A DNA stretch of 60,421 nt from a virus: positions 1-60,421 of IMG/VR virus record IMGVR_UViG_3300043787_000063. The stretch is one strand, 5' to 3'. Each line of letters starts with the position of its first letter. The stretch's first letter is position 1. Position numbers and translations under genes: made by a program. Positions 6,324-28,764 of the stretch are shown here, piece after piece. The notes below the pieces were generated by a model. The model saw nothing but the letters and a program-made list of their open reading frames with translations. It was not told where the DNA came from and searched no databases.

Positions 6324-6659
6324 ATGGCGGCAGAGTCTGCGCAGCAAAAGGTAACGTTAGAGCAAAGTGAGGCAGCTTCTTTTGCACCTGTAGATGAATC
6401 TGGAGTACCAATGATGATGATATCTTGTGCTGCTACAGAGTTAATACCTACACGTCAATATGCTAACGTGACGTCAGGCCCGATTGTAGTTAAAAGATGG
6501 ATTCCAGTAAACTTTAAAGGTTTTACTGAAGCTGAAGTTGTTAGCATGAAGTTAGCCGCAAAAGAAATGCAAGTAATATGTGAGGAAGCAGTTGCAGAGG
6601 ATAGACAATCTTTGCATGCTTTAATTCGTCAATCTGATGGTGGGAGATATACTGAATAA
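6324..6659 (+). CDS. Hypothetical protein, 111 aa
   Basis: It starts 2 bases after the previous stop. Helical with a central beta segment (VTSGPIVVKRWIPV) and no known domain. Probably co-transcribed with its neighbours. Confidence 0.55.
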   Translation: MAAESAQQKVTLEQSEAASFAPVDESGVPMMMISCAATELIPTRQYANVTSGPIVVKRWIPVNFKGFTEAEVVSMKLAAKEMQVICEEAVAEDRQSLHALIRQSDGGRYTE

Positions 6660-6662
6660 TAT

Positions 6663-6857
6663 ATGTTTTATATTCGTCCTTTGATATTAGGATCTAGTGA
6701 TGAAAAGATTGAAATAAAGACAGATAAAAGTGGAGAAGTTTATTTAGTTAATATCAATACAAAAATTAGCCTAACGGTAGATGAAGCAATAGTCATGGTT
6801 AATCATTTACAGTCAAGAATTGAACAGATAAAATCAGTAGAAGCAATTTTACGTTAA
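6663..6857 (+). CDS. Hypothetical protein, 64 aa
   Basis: A short protein with an N-terminal beta part and a C-terminal helix (VDEAIVMVNHLQSRIEQI). No motif is recognised. It lies in the same operon as 6103-6659. Confidence 0.5.
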   Translation: MFYIRPLILGSSDEKIEIKTDKSGEVYLVNINTKISLTVDEAIVMVNHLQSRIEQIKSVEAILR

Positions 6858-6881
6858 TTTTTATATTTTAAAGGAGTGGTA

Positions 6882-7076
6882 ATGCCAGATAGAACTTTTA
6901 TAGTCGATAAGCCAGGATATTGGGGATTCTGGATAGGTATTGATAAAGAAAATTTTAATGGAAAAGCCGATGTAACTATAATTAAGAATTCATATATGAA
7001 TATTGATCATAACCAAATAAGAATGTTGGGTAGAGGATTGATGAACGAAATTTATAGCATTGCAATTAATAATTAA
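6882..7076 (+). CDS. Hypothetical protein, 64 aa
   Basis: I chose the ATG at 6882 because AAAGGAG ends just upstream; a GTG six bases earlier overlaps that site. The sequence is compact, with aromatic residues in the first half. No family is recognised. Confidence 0.5.
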   Translation: MPDRTFIVDKPGYWGFWIGIDKENFNGKADVTIIKNSYMNIDHNQIRMLGRGLMNEIYSIAINN

Positions 7077-11515: not shown

Positions 11516-11589
11516 GCACTCGTAGCTCAAATAGGTAGAGCACCAACTTTGTAAGTTGGACGTTACAGGTTCGATTCCTGTCGAGTGCT
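11516..11589 (+). tRNA. tRNA-Thr (anticodon TGT)
   Basis: A full cloverleaf. Acceptor GCACTCG/CGAGTGC, D-stem GCTC/GAGC, anticodon stem CCAAC/GTTGG with loop TTTGTAA, and T-loop TTCGATT. The 3' CCA is not encoded. It reads the AT-rich threonine codon ACA. Confidence 0.92.
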
Positions 11590-18726: not shown

Positions 18727-19754
18727 CGAGAAGCCAGCTTTGGGGATTACTCGATAATTTTACTCCAGTAGAGTCAGTTCTTTTATCTGCATATGAAAAT
18801 GAAGAGAGGGAAATTTGGCGTAAAGGATTTGGAGATAAGAAAGGTCATACTAGCTTTACTTTTTCTAAATTTCCTGGCGACGATCCCGGTGTGTGTGGAA
18901 GGGCTCAAGTATATAATCTTTTAAGGCCTATAGAAGAAAAACCTTTAACTCCCAAAACTAGAATGCTGTTTGACGAGGGAACTGCTATAGAGCATATGTT
19001 CGTAAAGAGGTGGTCTAATTATGGGGTTCTTCTATCGGCGGATATTACTGGCGACGATGATTTTCAAACTTATTTTGAAGATCCAGAATGTTGGGCAACC
19101 GGCAATCCAGATGCAATTCTCCTTCCTCCCTTTTATACTAAAAGTCATGTAGTTGAGGTGAAGACTACTGAACAAGGAAAAATAGAAAGAATGAAGAATG
19201 AGCCTGACTTTTTTATATATTCACATCGAAAGTACGTAAGACAATTACAAGTTAATATTGCAGAAGCTCATGATAAATTTTCTCATACTGTAATTACTTG
19301 CGAAAAAAGTGGTGTGCTGATAAAGAATGGGCAGGAAAAATGCGCGGCAGTTCATCCCGGTAAGTGTATTCCAAAAGTACTAAAAGTAGAACCTCCTGAT
19401 GACGGTACCCTTCTTTATGCAAGTAGAGAGGAACCACTTACATGTATGATGAGTTATTACGTTCCTCATGATCCATCTGTTATTATTGAGGGGAAGAAAA
19501 GACTTAAATCATGGAAAGAAGATTTTATAAATGGTATTTTACCAGACCACGTAGATGGAACTAACTCTAAAAAATGGACATCTGGAGAATGTAGATATTG
19601 TGATATGAAATCTATTGCCTGTAAAGTTGATTTTAAAAATAAAACTAAAAACTTGAAAGATTCAGAGTTGATAAAATATAATAAGAAAATGAAACCAGAT
19701 TATGATTATGATAAAGTTAGGTCTGAAGTGCTAGATAGGTGGTCGAATGTCTGA
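18723..19754 (+). CDS. PD-(D/E)XK nuclease, Cas4/RecB-like
   Basis: 343 aa from a TTG that overlaps the previous stop. The nuclease core shows GTAIEHMF (His), GNPDAILL (Asp) and VVEVKTTEQ (the Glu-x-Lys), around residues 80-145. An early cysteine (CGR) and a C-terminal cluster CRYCD...AC fit the iron-sulfur site of Cas4-type exonucleases. It probably makes 3' or 5' tails for recombination. Placement after recA and before a large acidic protein supports that. Confidence 0.75.
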   Translation: MTRSQLWGLLDNFTPVESVLLSAYENEEREIWRKGFGDKKGHTSFTFSKFPGDDPGVCGRAQVYNLLRPIEEKPLTPKTRMLFDEGTAIEHMFVKRWSNYGVLLSADITGDDDFQTYFEDPECWATGNPDAILLPPFYTKSHVVEVKTTEQGKIERMKNEPDFFIYSHRKYVRQLQVNIAEAHDKFSHTVITCEKSGVLIKNGQEKCAAVHPGKCIPKVLKVEPPDDGTLLYASREEPLTCMMSYYVPHDPSVIIEGKKRLKSWKEDFINGILPDHVDGTNSKKWTSGECRYCDMKSIACKVDFKNKTKNLKDSELIKYNKKMKPDYDYDKVRSEVLDRWSNV

Positions 19755-21873
19755 GATTCAGCTTAATGATGATCAGTGTAAAGCTATTTTATTAGAGGGA
19801 TTAAATAGGGAAGTATATGAGAACCAGGGAAAAGTTCCAGACGATCCAGCAGTAAGATTAAAGGATGCTACTGATTTAGTACAAGCTGCCAGGGCTGCCT
19901 ATAATGCAAATAATAGGTCAGAGAATGTTGAAGCGATTCTTTTTATAGCTCAGTGTGATATGAAACCCTTACCTATAGTAAATATAAAAGATTCTTCAAA
20001 TGAAACTTTTCCAACTGAGTTAAAGGATGTACCATTAATAACTTTAGAGGATGATAGAAGATATCATAATGGTTTAGATCTTTATTCTTTAAATGATACG
20101 GTTTTAGATGCGCTTATTGAAAATCTAGAAAATGGTTCTAAATCTGAGCAGGTAGAAGCCGATATAAAAGCATATACTGAAGAGAAGGCGAGGCGAGAAA
20201 ATGCGGCAGCAGAAAAAGGCCAAGAAATCCCACAGGCAGAAGCACCGGCAGAGGCTAATGAAAAAGCCGGAGAAATTAGCGCAGAGGGCCCACCAGCACA
20301 GCTTACGGTGGACGGTGAAGCTACTTCAACGTCAGGGAACGCTGGAGGAAGCGGAGAAGTTTCAAAAATTTCTGAACAAGAAGGAACCGATGCCTCAGCT
20401 TTTGCAAGAGCACAAACTCCAGAGACGCGCAGCGAAAAGGGGCGCAAAGTTAAAGCCAAGTCGCCTGAGAAAGATTCAGAACGTGGAGAGTTAGAAACCC
20501 AGCTTACTCTTGCTATTTGTAAATACCACGAAATAGATATTACTAAAATTCCTGATCTTAGTACCTGGGAACTTAAATATATTATAGATAATCCAGATGG
20601 AATAAAACTAAAAGAGAAAATTTTAATGGCTATAAATGAGAAAGAAGTTGAAGCTGATGCTATTCCTTCTGACAGAGGGGGGAAATCGGCGGTAGGGTTC
20701 AAAGAGGTTCCTTCTCCTGAAAGAATAGTAAGTAAAGCTGATCTTAATTTAGAAGAAGTAGAAGGAGAACCTGTCGGCCAGATTTCTGCCGAGAGGGAGA
20801 AGCTTGAGAGTTTAGTAACTGGCCCAATCTTAAAAGTTTATCGAAGAGGTAGAAAAGAAATTCCCTCTATCGGAGATAATGAGCTTCGGTTTATGATTTT
20901 AAATTCTGATGGAAAAGTATCTCCAGAGAATCTACAGAGAGCTAAGAATCTAGATGAAGGTAAGACTGGGATAATTAGTAATAAGCCAGAGATGGTAGTT
21001 ATTAAAGAGGTTCCTGGCCAAGAACAAGTTTCTCATTTTATTGATCGTAAAGAAGATGTAGAAAATAAAATGAAAACTATGCAAGAAAGTAAGGAACAAT
21101 TTCCTTTAACTGAGGTGACCTTGCCATCTGGACAAAAAGTAATGGTATCTTTGCCAAAAGATATAGAAACTAAGGTAGTTAAAGATCTTCAGAATGTTCA
21201 CGATGAAGATTTAAAGTTAGATGAAGAAAGAAATTCAGATGATGATCTAAAATCAAAACTTAAAGATGATATAACTATAACTGAGGTGGATAAAGAAGTT
21301 GTGGAGGATAATAATGCTGAAGCCTTGATGAGCCCGTTAGTTAAAATATCTAAGCAAGCATCTGAATTTCAGAATATCGGAGCAACTAAGATAGAAGATA
21401 CACAGCAGAAAAATCGCGCGATGGAAATAATTGCTAAAGAGGGTATGCCAATTCCTCCTCAATATTCAGATGAGGAAGCTCCTATATTGCCTATGGATGT
21501 CTCTGTAATTTCTAGGGATGAATTATTTTCTCTTCACGCAAAGTTCCATGCTTGCGAGTCAAGGATGCTTTGGCTGATGTGTCAAGAGGAAGATACATTA
21601 GGAGATATAGAAAAGCTTAGGAAGAATAGAGAAGCAGTAGTAGCAGCAGAAGTTCCATTTATGGGAGAGGATGGAAAAAGAAATACGAACGAGTTTCGAG
21701 ATTCTCAAGTTGCTGCGGATGAAGAAGTATTAAGCTTAGGTATGCAAGAGCACGAGATAAAGAAGGTATTTAAGAGATTGAAGGTTCTTTGTGACTCTTA
21801 TCATAGGTCTTGTGAGAGAATGTCTAGACAGATGTCTAAATATGAAAGAGAGAGGTTAGATGCCCCAAGATGA
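19747..21873 (+). CDS. Large acidic protein with two related modules, 708 aa
   Basis: The stop and start overlap the nuclease gene. A helical N-terminal 130 residues is followed by a low-complexity Ala/Glu/Lys segment. Then come two related modules around residues 250-340 and 350-440: IPDLSTWELKYI and IPSIGDNELRFM, each followed by a KEVP box. A long charged linker and a helical C-terminal domain follow. It could be a scaffold or recombination partner, but no function is supported by a motif. The GC-rich segment 20200-20480 differs from its surroundings. Confidence 0.55.
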   Translation: MSEIQLNDDQCKAILLEGLNREVYENQGKVPDDPAVRLKDATDLVQAARAAYNANNRSENVEAILFIAQCDMKPLPIVNIKDSSNETFPTELKDVPLITLEDDRRYHNGLDLYSLNDTVLDALIENLENGSKSEQVEADIKAYTEEKARRENAAAEKGQEIPQAEAPAEANEKAGEISAEGPPAQLTVDGEATSTSGNAGGSGEVSKISEQEGTDASAFARAQTPETRSEKGRKVKAKSPEKDSERGELETQLTLAICKYHEIDITKIPDLSTWELKYIIDNPDGIKLKEKILMAINEKEVEADAIPSDRGGKSAVGFKEVPSPERIVSKADLNLEEVEGEPVGQISAEREKLESLVTGPILKVYRRGRKEIPSIGDNELRFMILNSDGKVSPENLQRAKNLDEGKTGIISNKPEMVVIKEVPGQEQVSHFIDRKEDVENKMKTMQESKEQFPLTEVTLPSGQKVMVSLPKDIETKVVKDLQNVHDEDLKLDEERNSDDDLKSKLKDDITITEVDKEVVEDNNAEALMSPLVKISKQASEFQNIGATKIEDTQQKNRAMEIIAKEGMPIPPQYSDEEAPILPMDVSVISRDELFSLHAKFHACESRMLWLMCQEEDTLGDIEKLRKNREAVVAAEVPFMGEDGKRNTNEFRDSQVAADEEVLSLGMQEHEIKKVFKRLKVLCDSYHRSCERMSRQMSKYERERLDAPR

Positions 21874-22090: not shown

Positions 22091-22437
22091 AAATTAAATT
22101 TAGAGTTAAAGATTTAATAAAAGCTTTGGAAGATGGAAAGAAAAGGCAGAATAATAAATATGAGACAGATTTAGTAGCTTATAATGCCTATGCTAAAAAG
22201 TTAGCTCCTAAAATCTCGGCAGAGATAAGAAAATTAGCCGATCAAATAGACGAACTGAATTTTACTAATATTAATACTAGATATAGTAATATGATAGGAT
22301 TTGAAATAAGAACTAAGCTTAGGGAAAAGCCTTCTAAACCAAATACTAACCAAATTGATTCTACTTTAGAAGCTTTAAAAATATCTTCTGATGAGTTTAT
22401 TACTATAAAGCAATCGGAGTATGATAGTTTATTGTGA
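22072..22437 (+). CDS. Hypothetical helical protein, 121 aa
   Basis: It overlaps the previous gene by 19 bases and the resolvase start by 4 (GTGA). Basic and helical, with no domain recognised. It could be a partner of the resolvase. Confidence 0.5.
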   Translation: MRHGDIKIKFRVKDLIKALEDGKKRQNNKYETDLVAYNAYAKKLAPKISAEIRKLADQIDELNFTNINTRYSNMIGFEIRTKLREKPSKPNTNQIDSTLEALKISSDEFITIKQSEYDSLL

Positions 22438-22664
22438 AGATAGCAGGTATTGATCCTTCAAGCTCTATAACAGGAGTTGCTTTATTAGAGAATAACAAAC
22501 TCATTATAACTGACCAATGGAATAAACCCAAAAATGGATCTGCTCCTGATAGATTAGTAGATTATTTTCTTTGGATACAAAATTGGTTATCTACCAATGA
22601 ACCAGATGTAGCAGTAATTGAGTTTCTTTCTGTCGTAAGAAATGCAGAAGCCACAATAGAATAG
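22434..22664 (+). pseudogene. RuvC-like resolvase, N-terminal half
   Basis: 76 residues from GTG. IAGIDPSSSITGVAL carries the first catalytic Asp of the RuvC/RNase H fold, and VAVIEF near residue 63 the second acidic residue. The frame is then cut by a stop (TAG at 22662). The rest of the same protein resumes at 23988, so this is the 5' part of a resolvase gene split by an inserted cassette. The half alone lacks the last catalytic DxxD. Confidence 0.8.
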
Positions 22665-22669
22665 ATAAA

Positions 22670-23551
22670 ATGATTTTAAATCCTGTAGAATTTTTCATTA
22701 GCCCAAAGGGGAAGCTTAGATTTGGTATTTTAGATAATGGTTGTTGGCCTTGGTTAATGGAAACTAAAAATAATTTGGGATATTTAAAAATTAATGGGAA
22801 AAGTTTAACAGCTGACAGATGGTTATATGAAGAAGCTTTTGGAAAAATTCCATCAGATAAAAAGTTAAACAAAAATTGTGAAACTAATTTATGTGTTAAT
22901 CCAGATCATATGAGGCTAATTGCTAAAGTAGATAAGTGTCAAATTGGATGTAAATGTAAAAAGCATTCATCTGAATTTAGAAAAATAGTTGGTAATCGTA
23001 ACAAAATAATTCACAAAGGAAAGATTGTTAGCAAAGAAACAAAGAGTAAAATGAGTGCTTCTCATATGGGAAAGACTATGCCTCCTAAGTCTAAAGAGTC
23101 TCTTGCTAAACAGAGCGAGTCTATGAAAATTGCTTGGGAAAATATGTCTGAAGAGACAAAAATTGTTAGAGCGAGAAAAATTTCTGAGTCTCATATAAAT
23201 AATCCTAGAATTCATAATACGTTTAAAGCTACGAATTTAGAGAATTATTTAGAAGATTTATTAATAATTTTAAATATAAAGTTTAAAAAACAAGTTTGGA
23301 TAGGGAGAGCTTGTGTAGATTTTTTAATAGAAGATTCTGCGATTTCTAATAAACCAATCGTTCTTGAGGTGTATGGCTGTTATTGGCATAATTGTAAAAG
23401 ATGTCAAGATATTAGAGGAATACAACCCAGGCCAGAAAAAACTATTGAGGATTTAACAAGAAAAATTTTATTAGAAGAAAAGGGATACCAAGTTATTGAG
23501 ATGTGGGAACATGAATTACCTGCTTGCTCAGATGGGAAAGTTATTTTTTAA
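22670..23551 (+). CDS. Homing endonuclease: HNH, NUMOD3-like helices and Vsr/PD-(D/E)XK-like C-terminus
   Basis: 293 aa. The N-terminus (about 1-90) resembles an HNH_3 domain (CETNLCVNPDHMRLI). A middle NUMOD3-like DNA-binding region reads SKETKSKMSASHMGKTMPPK (about 122-141). The C-terminal domain (about 185-290) has VDFLIEDS and LEVYGCYWHNC, like Vsr-type DNA nick endonucleases. It sits exactly in the resolvase gene, so its recognition site is probably there. Confidence 0.8.
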   Translation: MILNPVEFFISPKGKLRFGILDNGCWPWLMETKNNLGYLKINGKSLTADRWLYEEAFGKIPSDKKLNKNCETNLCVNPDHMRLIAKVDKCQIGCKCKKHSSEFRKIVGNRNKIIHKGKIVSKETKSKMSASHMGKTMPPKSKESLAKQSESMKIAWENMSEETKIVRARKISESHINNPRIHNTFKATNLENYLEDLLIILNIKFKKQVWIGRACVDFLIEDSAISNKPIVLEVYGCYWHNCKRCQDIRGIQPRPEKTIEDLTRKILLEEKGYQVIEMWEHELPACSDGKVIF

Positions 23552-23985
23552 TGTTAATACAATTAAAAATAGCTGGTAAATCTTCTACTAAGCAAAGACC
23601 TAGATTTAATTCTCAAACTGGTCATACCTATACCCCTCCTTCAAATATAATTTCTGAGAACGATGTTAGGAGCGTTTGGCGTGAAGCTGGGGAACCAAGA
23701 TTTGAGGGTAATACCCCGTTATCATTACATATTTTTATAGATGTATTAAGGCCACAAAGTCATTATAACAGTAAAGGTATTTTAAATAAAAAGGGGAATG
23801 AACACCCTTGGCCCGATAATAAAAAGCCTGATTTAGATAATGCTGTAAAGCTCATTATGGATGCTTTAAATAGTAGAGCTTATAAAGATGATGTTCAAAT
23901 TTGTCATATAGAAGTTATGAAAATGTGGGGAGAGTGGCCCGAGACTAGAGTAACTATAAATTCAATGCTTGATGATATTCAATAA
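23551..23985 (+). CDS. rusA: RusA-like Holliday junction resolvase
   Basis: 144 aa. I take the ATG at 23551, just after the endonuclease stop, rather than an upstream in-frame start. N-terminal KIAGKSSTKQRPRF, then WPDNKKPDLDNAVKLIMDALN with the RusA metal-binding aspartates (about residues 85-105), and a terminal YKDDVQI with a third acidic cluster. It cuts four-way junctions and may replace the disrupted RuvC activity. It is part of the inserted cassette. Confidence 0.85.
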   Translation: MLIQLKIAGKSSTKQRPRFNSQTGHTYTPPSNIISENDVRSVWREAGEPRFEGNTPLSLHIFIDVLRPQSHYNSKGILNKKGNEHPWPDNKKPDLDNAVKLIMDALNSRAYKDDVQICHIEVMKMWGEWPETRVTINSMLDDIQ

Positions 23986-23987
23986 TA

Positions 23988-24230
23988 TCCCATTATCAAG
24001 CAATTAGTGCTTTAGCTTGTAAACTTAGAAAATTATTAGTTATAGAAGCTAGGGTTACATCGGCAAGAAAAGCGGCGTTGGGAAAGGGAAGTATGTCTAA
24101 GGAGGAATCATATAAAAAGATTAAAGAGATTTATCCCGGCGAAGATTGGGGCCGCATAAATAATGGTGGCGCTGACAGAAGTGATGCTCTAATACTTGCT
24201 ATGGCTGGATTACAATTAGCTGAGAGATAA
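23988..24230 (+). pseudogene. RuvC-like resolvase, C-terminal half
   Basis: The frame reads SHYQAISALACKLRKL, then ARVTSARKAALGKG, then GGADRSDALILAMAG. These are the conserved C-terminal motifs of phage RuvC-like resolvases, including the last catalytic acidic residues. There is no usable start codon (TGA stops lie just upstream), so it would only be made if spliced or read through. Together with 22434-22664 it forms a complete protein. Confidence 0.8.
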
Positions 24231-24235
24231 TTAGT

Positions 24236-24397
24236 ATGAAATATAACCCAGTTGTATATAAAGAGTTAAATAGAATTAGATGTATAAATAATGAAGAAAA
24301 GCAAATTAATGAAGCTATGAAATTATATTTAAATGATGTGGTAGATTTAGAAGAATATGAATTATTTTGCAGTGAAATAATTAAACTACTAGTATGA
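24236..24397 (+). CDS. Hypothetical protein, 53 aa
   Basis: It starts 5 bases after the resolvase remnant. Helical, acidic in its C-terminal half. No motif. Probably an ordinary small phage gene. Confidence 0.45.
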   Translation: MKYNPVVYKELNRIRCINNEEKQINEAMKLYLNDVVDLEEYELFCSEIIKLLV

Positions 24398-24407
24398 GAG
24401 TGAGGTG

Positions 24408-24449
24408 ATGCAATTGACTATCGGAGAAGTAGTAGCACCGTTGTTATAA
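24408..24449 (+). CDS. Possible 13-residue leader peptide
   Basis: GAGGTG precedes an ATG for a 13-codon frame (LTIGEVVAPLL at its end). The frame stops directly before a strong terminator hairpin. The layout fits a leader peptide with attenuation ahead of the packaging genes. Confidence 0.35.
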   Translation: MQLTIGEVVAPLL

Positions 24450-24487
24450 GGGCTCCTTGGTGCGGATTTCTGCTGAGGAGCCCTTTC
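24450..24487 (+). terminator. Intrinsic terminator / attenuator
   Basis: GGGCTCCT pairs with AGGAGCCC (8 bp, 18-base loop), followed by TTTC. It separates the recombination genes from the packaging genes. Confidence 0.65.
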
Positions 24488-24492
24488 AAATA

Positions 24493-24633
24493 ATGTATGA
24501 TGGTAAGATGAGAAGAGATAGAAAATATCCGTGGGTTAGTATAAAGGGGTCTAGGAGGTTCAAAAGAAAACCTTGGCGTTGGCGTGACTCTACTACTCGG
24601 TTAGTTAAGATTAGGAAGAAACCTTGGAAATGA
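24493..24633 (+). CDS. Very basic 46-residue protein
   Basis: It starts just after the terminator. Rich in Arg/Lys/Trp (RRFKRKPWRWRD), so probably binds nucleic acid. It overlaps the terS start (ATGA). The family is not known. Confidence 0.45.
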   Translation: MYDGKMRRDRKYPWVSIKGSRRFKRKPWRWRDSTTRLVKIRKKPWK

Positions 24634-25214
24634 GCGAAGAACAAGAAATAGAGATGGAAGAAAATGGATCTGTAAAAGGTCATAGAGAAGACTTTCCTGA
24701 ATCTATTTCTGCGCTAAATCCTGCTGATGCATCAGTTTCAAAACAACCAAAAGATTCTCGCGGTAAGAGACTTTCAGGATTCGCTCGCCAGGGCTATTGG
24801 GATGAACCTAGTAAAGATGATCCGAATATAACTAATAGAGAAGCAAAAAGTATCTGGGCGCGTAGGATGGCCGCGGAAGGTAAAATAGGTGGTGCTCGTC
24901 CAGGTTCAGGTAGACCAAGAAAACAATCAGTAGCAGAGGTAGTAGCCGACAAATCCTCCGAGAATGCTGATAAGATAGCAAAGAAGCTTTTAGATTTAGC
25001 TTTAAATCATATATCTCCTTCTATTAATTTACAAGCAGTGGATAGGTTAAATAAGTATGAACAAGATTATGAGAAAAATATGAGAGATGATGAGAAAGAG
25101 CTTCGTAAACTTTCTGGTGATTCTCTGGATGCTGCTTTAAGGGATGTCTTGGAGGAATATACTGGAGTACAATATGATATAGAAGTTAGCGAGAAAGATA
25201 TAGAAGATGTCTAA
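24630..25214 (+). CDS. terS: Terminase small subunit (putative)
   Basis: 194 aa. The ATG at 24630 is preferred over a TTG two codons earlier. The centre has a KIGGARPGSGRPRKQS motif, the usual signature of phage small terminases of this type. The rest is helical (oligomerisation) with an acidic C-terminus. It recognises phage DNA for packaging with TerL. Its position before the large terminase supports the call. Confidence 0.7.
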   Translation: MSEEQEIEMEENGSVKGHREDFPESISALNPADASVSKQPKDSRGKRLSGFARQGYWDEPSKDDPNITNREAKSIWARRMAAEGKIGGARPGSGRPRKQSVAEVVADKSSENADKIAKKLLDLALNHISPSINLQAVDRLNKYEQDYEKNMRDDEKELRKLSGDSLDAALRDVLEEYTGVQYDIEVSEKDIEDV

Positions 25215-25719: not shown

Positions 25720-28700
25720 ATGGCGGGGAAAGTTAAAGATATAAAATTAGATAGTGTAGATCTATCTAAACTAACAGATAAGGAAAAACGTGAGTTAATC
25801 CTTTCTATGCGGCGACTTGGCGGCAAAAGTGGTTCGCAAAAAAGACCTGTACCTACTACTGATGATGAGCTGTGGGTACACATTAGGGAAGAATATGGCG
25901 ATGAAGTTCCTCGCGTAGCAGTTTGTAAAGATCATTGTGCGCCTTTTGATTTTATGGCAGATTATTACTTTGAACGTGCTACAGCATTGTTGGTGATGGC
26001 TGCGCGAGAAACAGGGAAGACACGTGGAGTGTCAATTATAAATTGTGTTATTGCGGAAACAAAAAATGGTGTGGAGATTTGTGTTGCAGGGGATACCTTA
26101 ATAGACTGTCCAAGAGACCATAGACAATACCCAAACGGTATTCCAATAAATATTATAAAATCTGGGCAGCTAATATGGACATTTAATGAAGAAAATTTTA
26201 TCTTTGAATTAAAGAGAGTAAAACAAGTAAAGCTAACTCATAAAGATTGTCAGTTATATAAATTAAAGCTCGATGATGGATCTGTAATAAGAGCAACTGC
26301 TGAGCATAAATTTCTTCATAGGAATGGAGAATGGGTTAAATTATGTGATTTAAAATTTGGTGATTCTCTTATGCCTATGTATAGAGATTTTGAGCCATAT
26401 GTAAGAATAAGGCCAGATGCTACTGGTGGTGGAGAAAAAATATCTGAGTATAAAGCTGTTGCGAATTTTAAATGGGAAGATAGAAAAGGATTTCATATAG
26501 ACCACATTGATGAAATTCATGCTAATTCTAGTGAGGATAATCTACAGTTACTTACGGTTAGCGAACATGCTTCTAAGACCATGAAGGGAAGAAATGTAGG
26601 ATTTCGCAGAAAGCAGCAACAGAAGGCGCAGATGAACAGTGTAAATGACGTAAAGAGGAATAAAGAAGCTAAAGAAATATTAGAGAAATTAAAAAATATA
26701 CCAGAAGACCAGTTAACTATTCCACAGCTAGAAGCCTTAGATAGATATTATTCAACTTCTGAAAATGGAGAGATAGAATTTACTTGTAGTATATGCAGGG
26801 AAAATTTTGTTAGAAGAATGAATGGAAGAGATAGAGTGCCGCTTTGCAATTTATGTAAGACAGAGGGTAGAATATGTCCTGTTTGTAAAGAACCATATGT
26901 AGTAGAAAGATATAGTAAGAATAAAACTTGTTCTAGAAGGTGCGGGCAAATTCTAAAACACCAAATATATTCTTATAAAAATAAAAAATGTGCAAAATGC
27001 GAAAAAGAGTTTACTCCAAAAAACGGTAGCACTAAAAATTGTCCTGATTGCCAAAATAGATATTTTCAAACTTATGAGAGAAGCAGGCGTAGGGAAATAG
27101 AGCATTCACAATATTATAATCATAAAGTAGTATCAGTTGAGAAAGATTCAATAGAGGATGTATGGGATTTAGAAGTTGAAGATAACCATAACTTTGTATC
27201 TTGCGGAGTTGTTCTACATAATTGTGCCTTTGCGGAGATCGAGGCTCAAACAGAAAAATCTTATTCTTATGTAAAAGAGTTTGTATATGATTATGATAAA
27301 GATGGAAAGAAAGTTATAAAACCGGGTATACTGGGTGAGCCATTGCGAAAGATGACTCAATGGAAGAATGGGTCTAAACTTTTACTTATTGTTGCTACTC
27401 TTGGTGGAGTTAATGCACAGCATTCACAAAAGGTTTATGCTGATGAGATTGATCTTATGAAAAAGGATATTTTTTATGAGAGCAGATCAATTAGTAGTTC
27501 TAAGACTCTTAAAGATGGTACGATAGTAAAAGCTCAAGATATTGCGACTTCTACTCGCAAGTCCAATAAGGGCGTTATGCAGGAAATAATGAATGAGTGT
27601 GATAGTGCTGAAAAAAATGGTTTCGATCCTCCTTGGACTAGATATATTTTTTGTATATTTGAGGTAGCAAAGGAGAACCCAGCTTGCAGAAATGTTCCTA
27701 AAGATATAAGGAAAGCTAGACTAATTGAGTTAGGTAAAGACCCTTGTGAATTGTGTGATTGCGACAAAGTGGTCAAAGGAGAGTGGGCTGAGGGAGTTCC
27801 AAGAACTTTAGAGTCAGTATGTAAGGGTAGGCTTTTTAGATCAAGAGGTTGGATGGCGCATAATGACGTTAAGCGAAAGTTCGTTCAGAATATACCTCAA
27901 GTTTGGGTAGCGCAGCTTGAATGTAAAAGACCAATGGCAGATGGTCTTTATTTGCCAACTTGGAATAGAGAAAAGCATTGTATTCGTGGTTTTGAACCAA
28001 GACCGGAGTATGGATTAATTTGGCAAGGAATAGACTGGGGCGGCGCAGCGGCCAGTTTTGTGATTTGGATTCAAGGTCCTATGCATCAATCACTACAAGT
28101 TAATAATACTATAGGAACTAAAACTATTATTCCTCAAGGAGCTTATGTAGCTTTTAAAGAGTTATCTGAGGCTTCCATGGGTGCAACTCGTCTCGCAGAT
28201 AAAGTTGTTAGACAAGAGATTCAATATAAGAATAGATTCGGTGGAGGTTGGAGGGTAAAGGCAAGATTTGCTGATATGGCGGGGAGACAACAGCGAGAGG
28301 ACTGGAGAGAGCATAACCCTCCATTAAGAACTGTTTGGTATATCTCAAGAGATGTAGACCCTATGTTTGAATGTTTACAGGCTTTAGTTACTGATAATAT
28401 GTTTTATGTAGATGATCAAAATGCTCCTACTTTATGTGATGACTTCGAGAGTTGGAGAATGGAGAATAATAAGGAAGTGCATGACGAATCAACTCACGGA
28501 CCTTCTGCAACTAAATATTGCATGAAGAATGTAACTACTATTATGAAGAGATTTAAAAATACTACTACCCGCACGAGCTTAGCGCCGGTGGTCGTCGGCA
28601 GGGACGCGGCCCAAAATGTTCCTGGTGCTTTGGCTGCTGCTAGTGTAGGATCTGTTTCTCCCGGCGAAGCGTCCTCTGAGAATTGGCGCAGGAGTCTAGG

Positions 28701-28764
28701 CGCTCCAGCGACGCAGGGGGATTTTGAAAATAGAAGGGGAGGGGCAGAGCCGTGGAGGCCGTAA
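25720..28764 (+). CDS. terL: Terminase large subunit, interrupted by an HNH intein
   Basis: The 1014-codon gene encodes a packaging ATPase/nuclease of about 633 residues after splicing. Walker A-like AARETGKTRG is near residue 95, Walker B-like VYADEIDLM follows the intein, and the nuclease domain shows GLIWQGIDWGG and KARFADMAG. The intein is residues 121-501 and interrupts just after the Walker A region. The extein halves join as NGVEI-CAFAEIEAQT. The C-terminal 40 residues are GC-rich and disordered. Confidence 0.88.
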   Translation: MAGKVKDIKLDSVDLSKLTDKEKRELILSMRRLGGKSGSQKRPVPTTDDELWVHIREEYGDEVPRVAVCKDHCAPFDFMADYYFERATALLVMAARETGKTRGVSIINCVIAETKNGVEICVAGDTLIDCPRDHRQYPNGIPINIIKSGQLIWTFNEENFIFELKRVKQVKLTHKDCQLYKLKLDDGSVIRATAEHKFLHRNGEWVKLCDLKFGDSLMPMYRDFEPYVRIRPDATGGGEKISEYKAVANFKWEDRKGFHIDHIDEIHANSSEDNLQLLTVSEHASKTMKGRNVGFRRKQQQKAQMNSVNDVKRNKEAKEILEKLKNIPEDQLTIPQLEALDRYYSTSENGEIEFTCSICRENFVRRMNGRDRVPLCNLCKTEGRICPVCKEPYVVERYSKNKTCSRRCGQILKHQIYSYKNKKCAKCEKEFTPKNGSTKNCPDCQNRYFQTYERSRRREIEHSQYYNHKVVSVEKDSIEDVWDLEVEDNHNFVSCGVVLHNCAFAEIEAQTEKSYSYVKEFVYDYDKDGKKVIKPGILGEPLRKMTQWKNGSKLLLIVATLGGVNAQHSQKVYADEIDLMKKDIFYESRSISSSKTLKDGTIVKAQDIATSTRKSNKGVMQEIMNECDSAEKNGFDPPWTRYIFCIFEVAKENPACRNVPKDIRKARLIELGKDPCELCDCDKVVKGEWAEGVPRTLESVCKGRLFRSRGWMAHNDVKRKFVQNIPQVWVAQLECKRPMADGLYLPTWNREKHCIRGFEPRPEYGLIWQGIDWGGAAASFVIWIQGPMHQSLQVNNTIGTKTIIPQGAYVAFKELSEASMGATRLADKVVRQEIQYKNRFGGGWRVKARFADMAGRQQREDWREHNPPLRTVWYISRDVDPMFECLQALVTDNMFYVDDQNAPTLCDDFESWRMENNKEVHDESTHGPSATKYCMKNVTTIMKRFKNTTTRTSLAPVVVGRDAAQNVPGALAAASVGSVSPGEASSENWRRSLGAPATQGDFENRRGGAEPWRP
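26080..27222 (+). mobile_element. Intein in TerL, with HNH homing endonuclease
   Basis: 381 codons. It begins with the Cys of CVAGDTLIDCPRD and ends VVLHN before the extein Cys, the class 1 splicing arrangement. Inside are an HNH core (FHIDHIDEIHANSSEDNLQLLT type, about 26494-26560) and several CxxC zinc pairs. Removal by protein splicing restores the terminase. Confidence 0.9.

Follow-up and report, generated by a model that had tools for sequence, protein, structure and literature searches.

The stretch of DNA analyzed here (the window) is the 60,421-base IMG/VR virus record IMGVR_UViG_3300043787_000063, a single metagenomic contig. The window is probably a fragment of a phage genome, because the records of its nearest relatives span 91–95 kb. 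Six tRNA genes are present (at 11516, 44325, 46552, 56165, 56963, and 58511). The gene order in this phage group is RecA, exonuclease, long acidic protein, resolvase, TerS, and TerL. In the window, the resolvase slot lies downstream of the long acidic protein gene (19747–21873) and is followed by a TerS-position gene (24624–25214), the homologue of which comes after ruvC or rusA in relatives, and by the gene for an intein-containing TerL (25720–28764; used for the phage tree), all on the + strand. The slot is occupied by an N-terminal fragment of ruvC, a putative homing endonuclease gene, rusA, and a C-terminal fragment of ruvC, likewise all on the + strand; the nuclease gene and rusA are intact, co-directional, and overlapping. 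A strong hairpin (24448–24487; GGGCTCCT...AGGAGCCC) lies between the split ruvC and the TerS-position gene, and a strong hairpin likewise separates ruvC from TerS in L003, a relative with an uninterrupted ruvC.

The N-terminal ruvC fragment (22434–22664) has a GTG start and comprises codons 1–74 (22434–22655), followed by Ile, Glu, and a TAG stop (22662–22664). The C-terminal fragment (23985–24230) comprises codons 77–157, in frame from ATA 23985/TCC 23988 to TAA 24230. The first-pass annotation had described a RuvC-type resolvase gene split at these positions, and this is borne out by profile matches and by intact relatives. The N part matches Pfam RuvC over residues 3–75 (E = 6.8e-5) and PHROG 159 “RuvC-like resolvase” (E = 8e-10), and the C part matches PHROG 159 (E = 4e-5). 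Two relatives, L002 and L003, encode a one-frame RuvC of 157 amino acids that is 76–78% identical to that of the window. Because the N part matches residues 1–74 of the intact relatives (77–79% identity, E about 1e-36), and the C part residues 76–157 (74–80% identity, E about 1e-38), the split arrangement is not a chance resemblance. A single intact RuvC frame is absent, and the four catalytic acidic residues are all present but spread over two cistrons: D7 and E63 are retained in the N fragment, and two catalytic Asp residues (GGADRSDA) in the C fragment. Relative to the intact ruvC of L002, L003, L027, and L015, only about two codons, which specify Arg-Val in L002 and L003, are absent at the join between EAT and ISHYQ.

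The left junction lies at 22656–22669, where DNA comparison with L002, L003, and L027 shows that homology to intact ruvC stops inside GAAGCCACAA; the nuclease ATG is 5 bases past the stop of the ruvC N fragment. At the right junction (23983–23990), the RusA stop TAA overlaps ATA (ruvC codon 77), and homology to intact ruvC restarts at ATATCCC. The intervening insert (22659–23987) has the length of 1329 bases given earlier, and the proposal that it contains an endonuclease and RusA is upheld by Pfam and PHROG matches for the endonuclease and by a Pfam match for RusA. Within it, the stop codon of the nuclease gene overlaps the start of rusA as TAATG (23549–23553), by which the two genes are likely to be translationally coupled, judging from the sequence. 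The RusA start is most likely this ATG (23551), rather than TTG 23524 as in the list of open reading frames. The tail of rusA (23964–23984; AATGCTTGATGATATTCAATA) aligns in register with ruvC codons 70–76 over AATGCT, with six identical bases; this match could be due to chance and is not counted as a duplicated scrap of ruvC.

Could the arrangement be artefactual or reversible? For a locus found on one metagenomic contig only, it might be proposed that the assembly fused two phages occurring together, one with ruvC and the other with rusA. Such a chimera is very improbable: both ruvC halves are in register and about equally close to L002/L003 (DNA identity 75/74% for the N half and 73/73% for the C half), the junctions are clean on both sides, and two matched mis-joins in one gene would be needed. 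Endonuclease genes within conserved genes often sit in introns or inteins, and the terminase of this phage has an intein, so that a self-splicing intron or intein-related element might restore full-length RuvC. This, however, is scarcely credible at the ruvC locus. Rfam searches of 22400–24450 found nothing relevant to a group I or group II intron, at the gathering threshold or at E ≤ 5, and the efficient intron considered in the first-pass annotation is accordingly rejected; only about 11 bases at the left end, and next to none at the right end, are non-coding; and the joined frame is two codons short. A gene fractured by a split intein is also rejected, as neither half matches an intein, nor does the nuclease, and only two residues come after codon 74.

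Homing elements seem to be plentiful in this phage group. The intein of the window TerL contains an HNH-like region and follows VEI (CVAGDT...VVLHN). From sequences read by eye, the TerL proteins of L002 (4494–7670) and L004 (7806–10976) have inteins at another site, after ESAK, and the TerL of L003 (8066–9952) has none. The long acidic protein of L002 (3–2201) includes an intein-like segment (CVAEGQQVL...ALTHN) that is missing in the window homologue. Several small HNH genes are found elsewhere in relatives (L080–L085; records G001, G002, and G003), of which those of L083 and L084 have a degenerate HNH motif of the kind seen in the window nuclease. In the RusA-bearing group (L005, at 6416–7054; L008; L010; L011; L029), an endonuclease-VII-like open reading frame with weak PHROG matches lies between rusA and TerS.

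The putative homing endonuclease (22670–23551; 293 amino acids) consists of an HNH-like N-terminus, a NUMOD3-like linker, and a C-terminal Vsr-like EDxHD domain, and matches NUMOD3 (weakly), DUF559, and PHROG endonuclease/HNH profiles. The C-terminal domain (pLDDT about 85–95 in the structural model) belongs to a Vsr-like family, because it shares E, D, GCYWH, and WEH motifs with viral homologues and the model is matched best in the PDB by the homing endonuclease I-Bth0305I and by Vsr. The motifs LE, VDF, LEVYGCYWHNC, and MWEHEL align with eight viral homologues, including the conserved acidic residues, and Foldseek ranks 1–4 are I-Bth0305I (3r3p; TMt 0.62, E = 1.8e-3) and Escherichia coli Vsr (1cw0, 1vsr). 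The N-terminal module does not conform to the HNH class: the usual histidine before C.N..CVNP.H is absent, with LNKNC in place of V(H/D)H.C (LNKNCETNLCVNPDH in the window vs. VHHKC/VDHRC in L081, L082, and L085). Because the usual histidine pair is missing, this module is likely to function in DNA binding only. I-Bth0305I is intron-encoded. The window nuclease resembles it in the fold of the catalytic domain and in residues of the E-D-x-H-D type, but is intronless, has a degenerate HNH-like N-terminal module, and appears to be coupled to rusA. Searches by peptide patterns did not find the window nuclease in other viral contigs. A motif scan of viral contigs yielded 59 Vsr-type candidates, the eight closest of which mostly look free-standing between genes when flanking open reading frames are listed; the nuclease of L102 has the same architecture as that of the window.

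RusA (23551–23985; 144 amino acids) is a Holliday-junction resolvase that matches Pfam PF05866 with E = 2.3e-23. Its motif (PDLDN..K..DALN..AYKDD) is intact: PD(L/V)DN..K and the second Asp are present, and the motif residues are invariant in a nine-sequence alignment. Compared with the RusA of L004 (68% identity), pN is 0.22 and pS is 0.76, and the gene therefore shows purifying selection at the sequence level and looks like a functional resolvase. The G+C content is 0.34 in both window rusA and L004 rusA, and the other rusA-bearing loci are mostly G+C-richer (0.49–0.65 for the locus). The donor was thus probably an A+T-rich L004-like relative, rather than a member of the mostly G+C-richer RusA group.

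Related viruses were compared at the same slot, with the qualification that some contigs are too short to include the upstream genes, and that the acidic protein in some is too divergent for detection. The slot holds an uninterrupted ruvC in L002, L003, L027, and L015, and a divergent ruvC in L018 (the last three loci were added by a terminase scan), such that related genomes with the two halves in one frame and no cassette, named in the first-pass annotation as what would support it, do have this gene at the same syntenic place. It holds rusA alone in L004–L011 and L029; RusA is the normal slot resolvase of a neighboring phage group and of the close relative L004. Searches of whole records agree: RuvC is present and RusA absent in records G001, G003, and G004 (L003, L027, and L015; 91–95 kb), and RusA is present and RuvC absent in record G002 (L004). 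No convincing relics of RuvC were found in the rusA slots of L004, L005, L008, L010, and L011. The two resolvases are therefore mutually exclusive occupants of one role in related genomes, and the window is the only one of the loci compared that has the two, with an intact RusA and a split RuvC. Displacement of RuvC by RusA is well supported by this pattern. Further afield, the locus had no relatives among GenBank phages at the DNA level, the joined RuvC had no tblastn matches in phages, and a TerL search in phages gave one weak match, to Myxococcus phage Mx1. A RuvC scan of bacterial genomes was uninformative, with distant homologues only (21–32% identity).

RuvC, not RusA, looks ancestral and vertically inherited in the clade of the window, and RusA looks horizontally acquired, because the divergence of RuvC tracks that of TerL and the divergence of RusA does not. 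RuvC identity follows TerL identity across pairs (35/39, 56/50, and 77/63), whereas the RusA of the window or L004 is 51–63% identical to that of other RusA phages at a TerL identity of 34–44%, which resembles the level in pairs with TerL 59–70% identical. The TerL, exonuclease, and RecA trees agree in placing RuvC-bearing L015 outside the group of L004 (RusA) and the window. The possibility raised earlier, that RusA is ancestral at this place, is not favored by these comparisons.

Retention of the ruvC halves raises the question of whether both fragments are made as proteins and together form an active resolvase, with RusA as an extra enzyme. For this, it can be said that the four catalytic acidic residues are kept, two per half, that both frames are open, and that the sequences are constrained: the window branch has 7 and 6 amino acid changes in the two halves, compared with 7/6 and 6/11 for the intact branches, without any excess. 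As far as these sequences indicate, the gene was broken only recently, or else its halves are still of use. There is also a precedent, in that homing endonuclease genes lacking an intron or intein split genes of T4-like phages (mobE in nrdA of phage Aeh1, mobA in gene 60 of T4, and seg43 in gene 43 of phage 25), and the halves of the split NrdA and gene 43 products make up a working enzyme (PMC2988022). The ruvC locus is like these in that a homing endonuclease gene leaves a conserved phage gene as two cistrons, but differs in that there is no normal start for the C half and the nuclease is accompanied by an unrelated enzyme of the same function. Reassembly of RuvC appears less likely than its loss, because the first ATG, GTG, or TTG codon of the C half is TTG 24078 (codon ~108) and no Shine–Dalgarno-like site accompanies its ATA; this second point is weak evidence alone, since several window genes also lack such a site. 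In addition, the AlphaFold model of L003 RuvC (pLDDT 90.7), which matches RuvC crystal structures, places the break in the first turn of a long helix (71–90), and no sampled relative has RusA together with RuvC. An assembled two-piece RuvC is consequently improbable. The alternative raised earlier, that the C-terminal half is a separate functional gene, is countered by the lack of a canonical start in a useful place, even though its sequence is still constrained.

The account we favor, with fair but not high confidence, is that a coupled two-gene cassette, comprising a Vsr-like (EDxHD) homing endonuclease gene and rusA, interrupts ruvC, and that rusA now serves as the resolvase gene. A single insertion is the simplest account, because the TAATG overlap leaves no spacer and the end of rusA coincides exactly with the right ruvC junction. 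These same features argue against two independent events, in which a homing endonuclease invaded ruvC and rusA was later recruited from an L004-like phage by ordinary recombination as compensation. That sequence of events is unlikely, but draws some weight from the commonness of rusA in the resolvase slot of relatives, from the lower G+C content of the nuclease gene (0.298 vs. 0.336 for rusA), and from the lack of a second pair in a set of 62 rusA loci, some of them overlapping, where no locus besides the window has a nuclease of this type within 2 kb of rusA. The cassette account is itself tempered by this absence, by the origin of the locus in one contig, by the constraint that both ruvC halves still show, by a Foldseek E value of only 1.8e-3 for the nuclease, and by the mostly free-standing look of the Vsr-type nucleases examined. 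The idea in the first-pass annotation that RusA compensates for the lost activity is strengthened by the apparent functionality of RusA and by its replacement of RuvC at the same locus in relatives; RusA in this slot, on the other hand, is not in itself unusual.

We infer that the nuclease drove the displacement. Under the coupled-cassette account, the nuclease or its ancestor would have cleaved ruvC at the insertion site or close to it, and repair of the break would have installed the nuclease gene and rusA into ruvC. RusA, read from the transcription unit of ruvC, would now resolve junctions. As homology arms, the ruvC halves could direct further homing into co-infecting phages that bear ruvC, with the rescue carried along in each transfer, and later loss of the ruvC remnants would leave a plain rusA slot, as in L004.

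Displacement of RuvC by RusA is of a type known from other phages, here caught in mid-step. In jumbo phages (PhiKZ-like), RusA displaces RuvC and the two have complementary distributions (PMC7824862). The phages compared here share this complementary distribution of unrelated enzymes, but in the window the replacement occurs at a single fixed locus, with ruvC remnants flanking the insert and a nuclease within it. We found no paper in the open-access literature that joins phage genes split by homing endonuclease genes with RusA-for-RuvC displacement; each is known, and their combination, as read from the sequence, would be the new part.

A broader interpretation, which we hold only tentatively, is that the locus is a natural home-and-rescue element, in which an intronless homing endonuclease enters an important recombination gene and can spread only with an unrelated isofunctional enzyme. 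In synthetic home-and-rescue or cleave-and-rescue drives, a nuclease in the target gene carries an uncuttable rescue (PMC7968924; PMC7951863). The window element follows the same logic of a nuclease inserted in a target gene together with a rescue, but is natural and phage-borne, its rescue is a non-homologous enzyme, and its drive activity is putative. As such a rescue, rusA would be out of reach both of the nuclease and of recombination with ruvC.

The replacement of an enzyme by an unrelated isofunctional one is usually inferred from end states only. At this locus, the broken enzyme and its replacement are found in one genome, and the insert also encodes a nuclease that could account for the swap. 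If the nuclease cuts ruvC, the locus would be nature's equivalent of the engineered home-and-rescue drives, and the entry of a selfish nuclease into an important gene could also be understood with no need for an intron, an intein, or reassembled halves. If the home-and-rescue interpretation is true, homing would drive the displacement of phage genes by non-orthologous ones.
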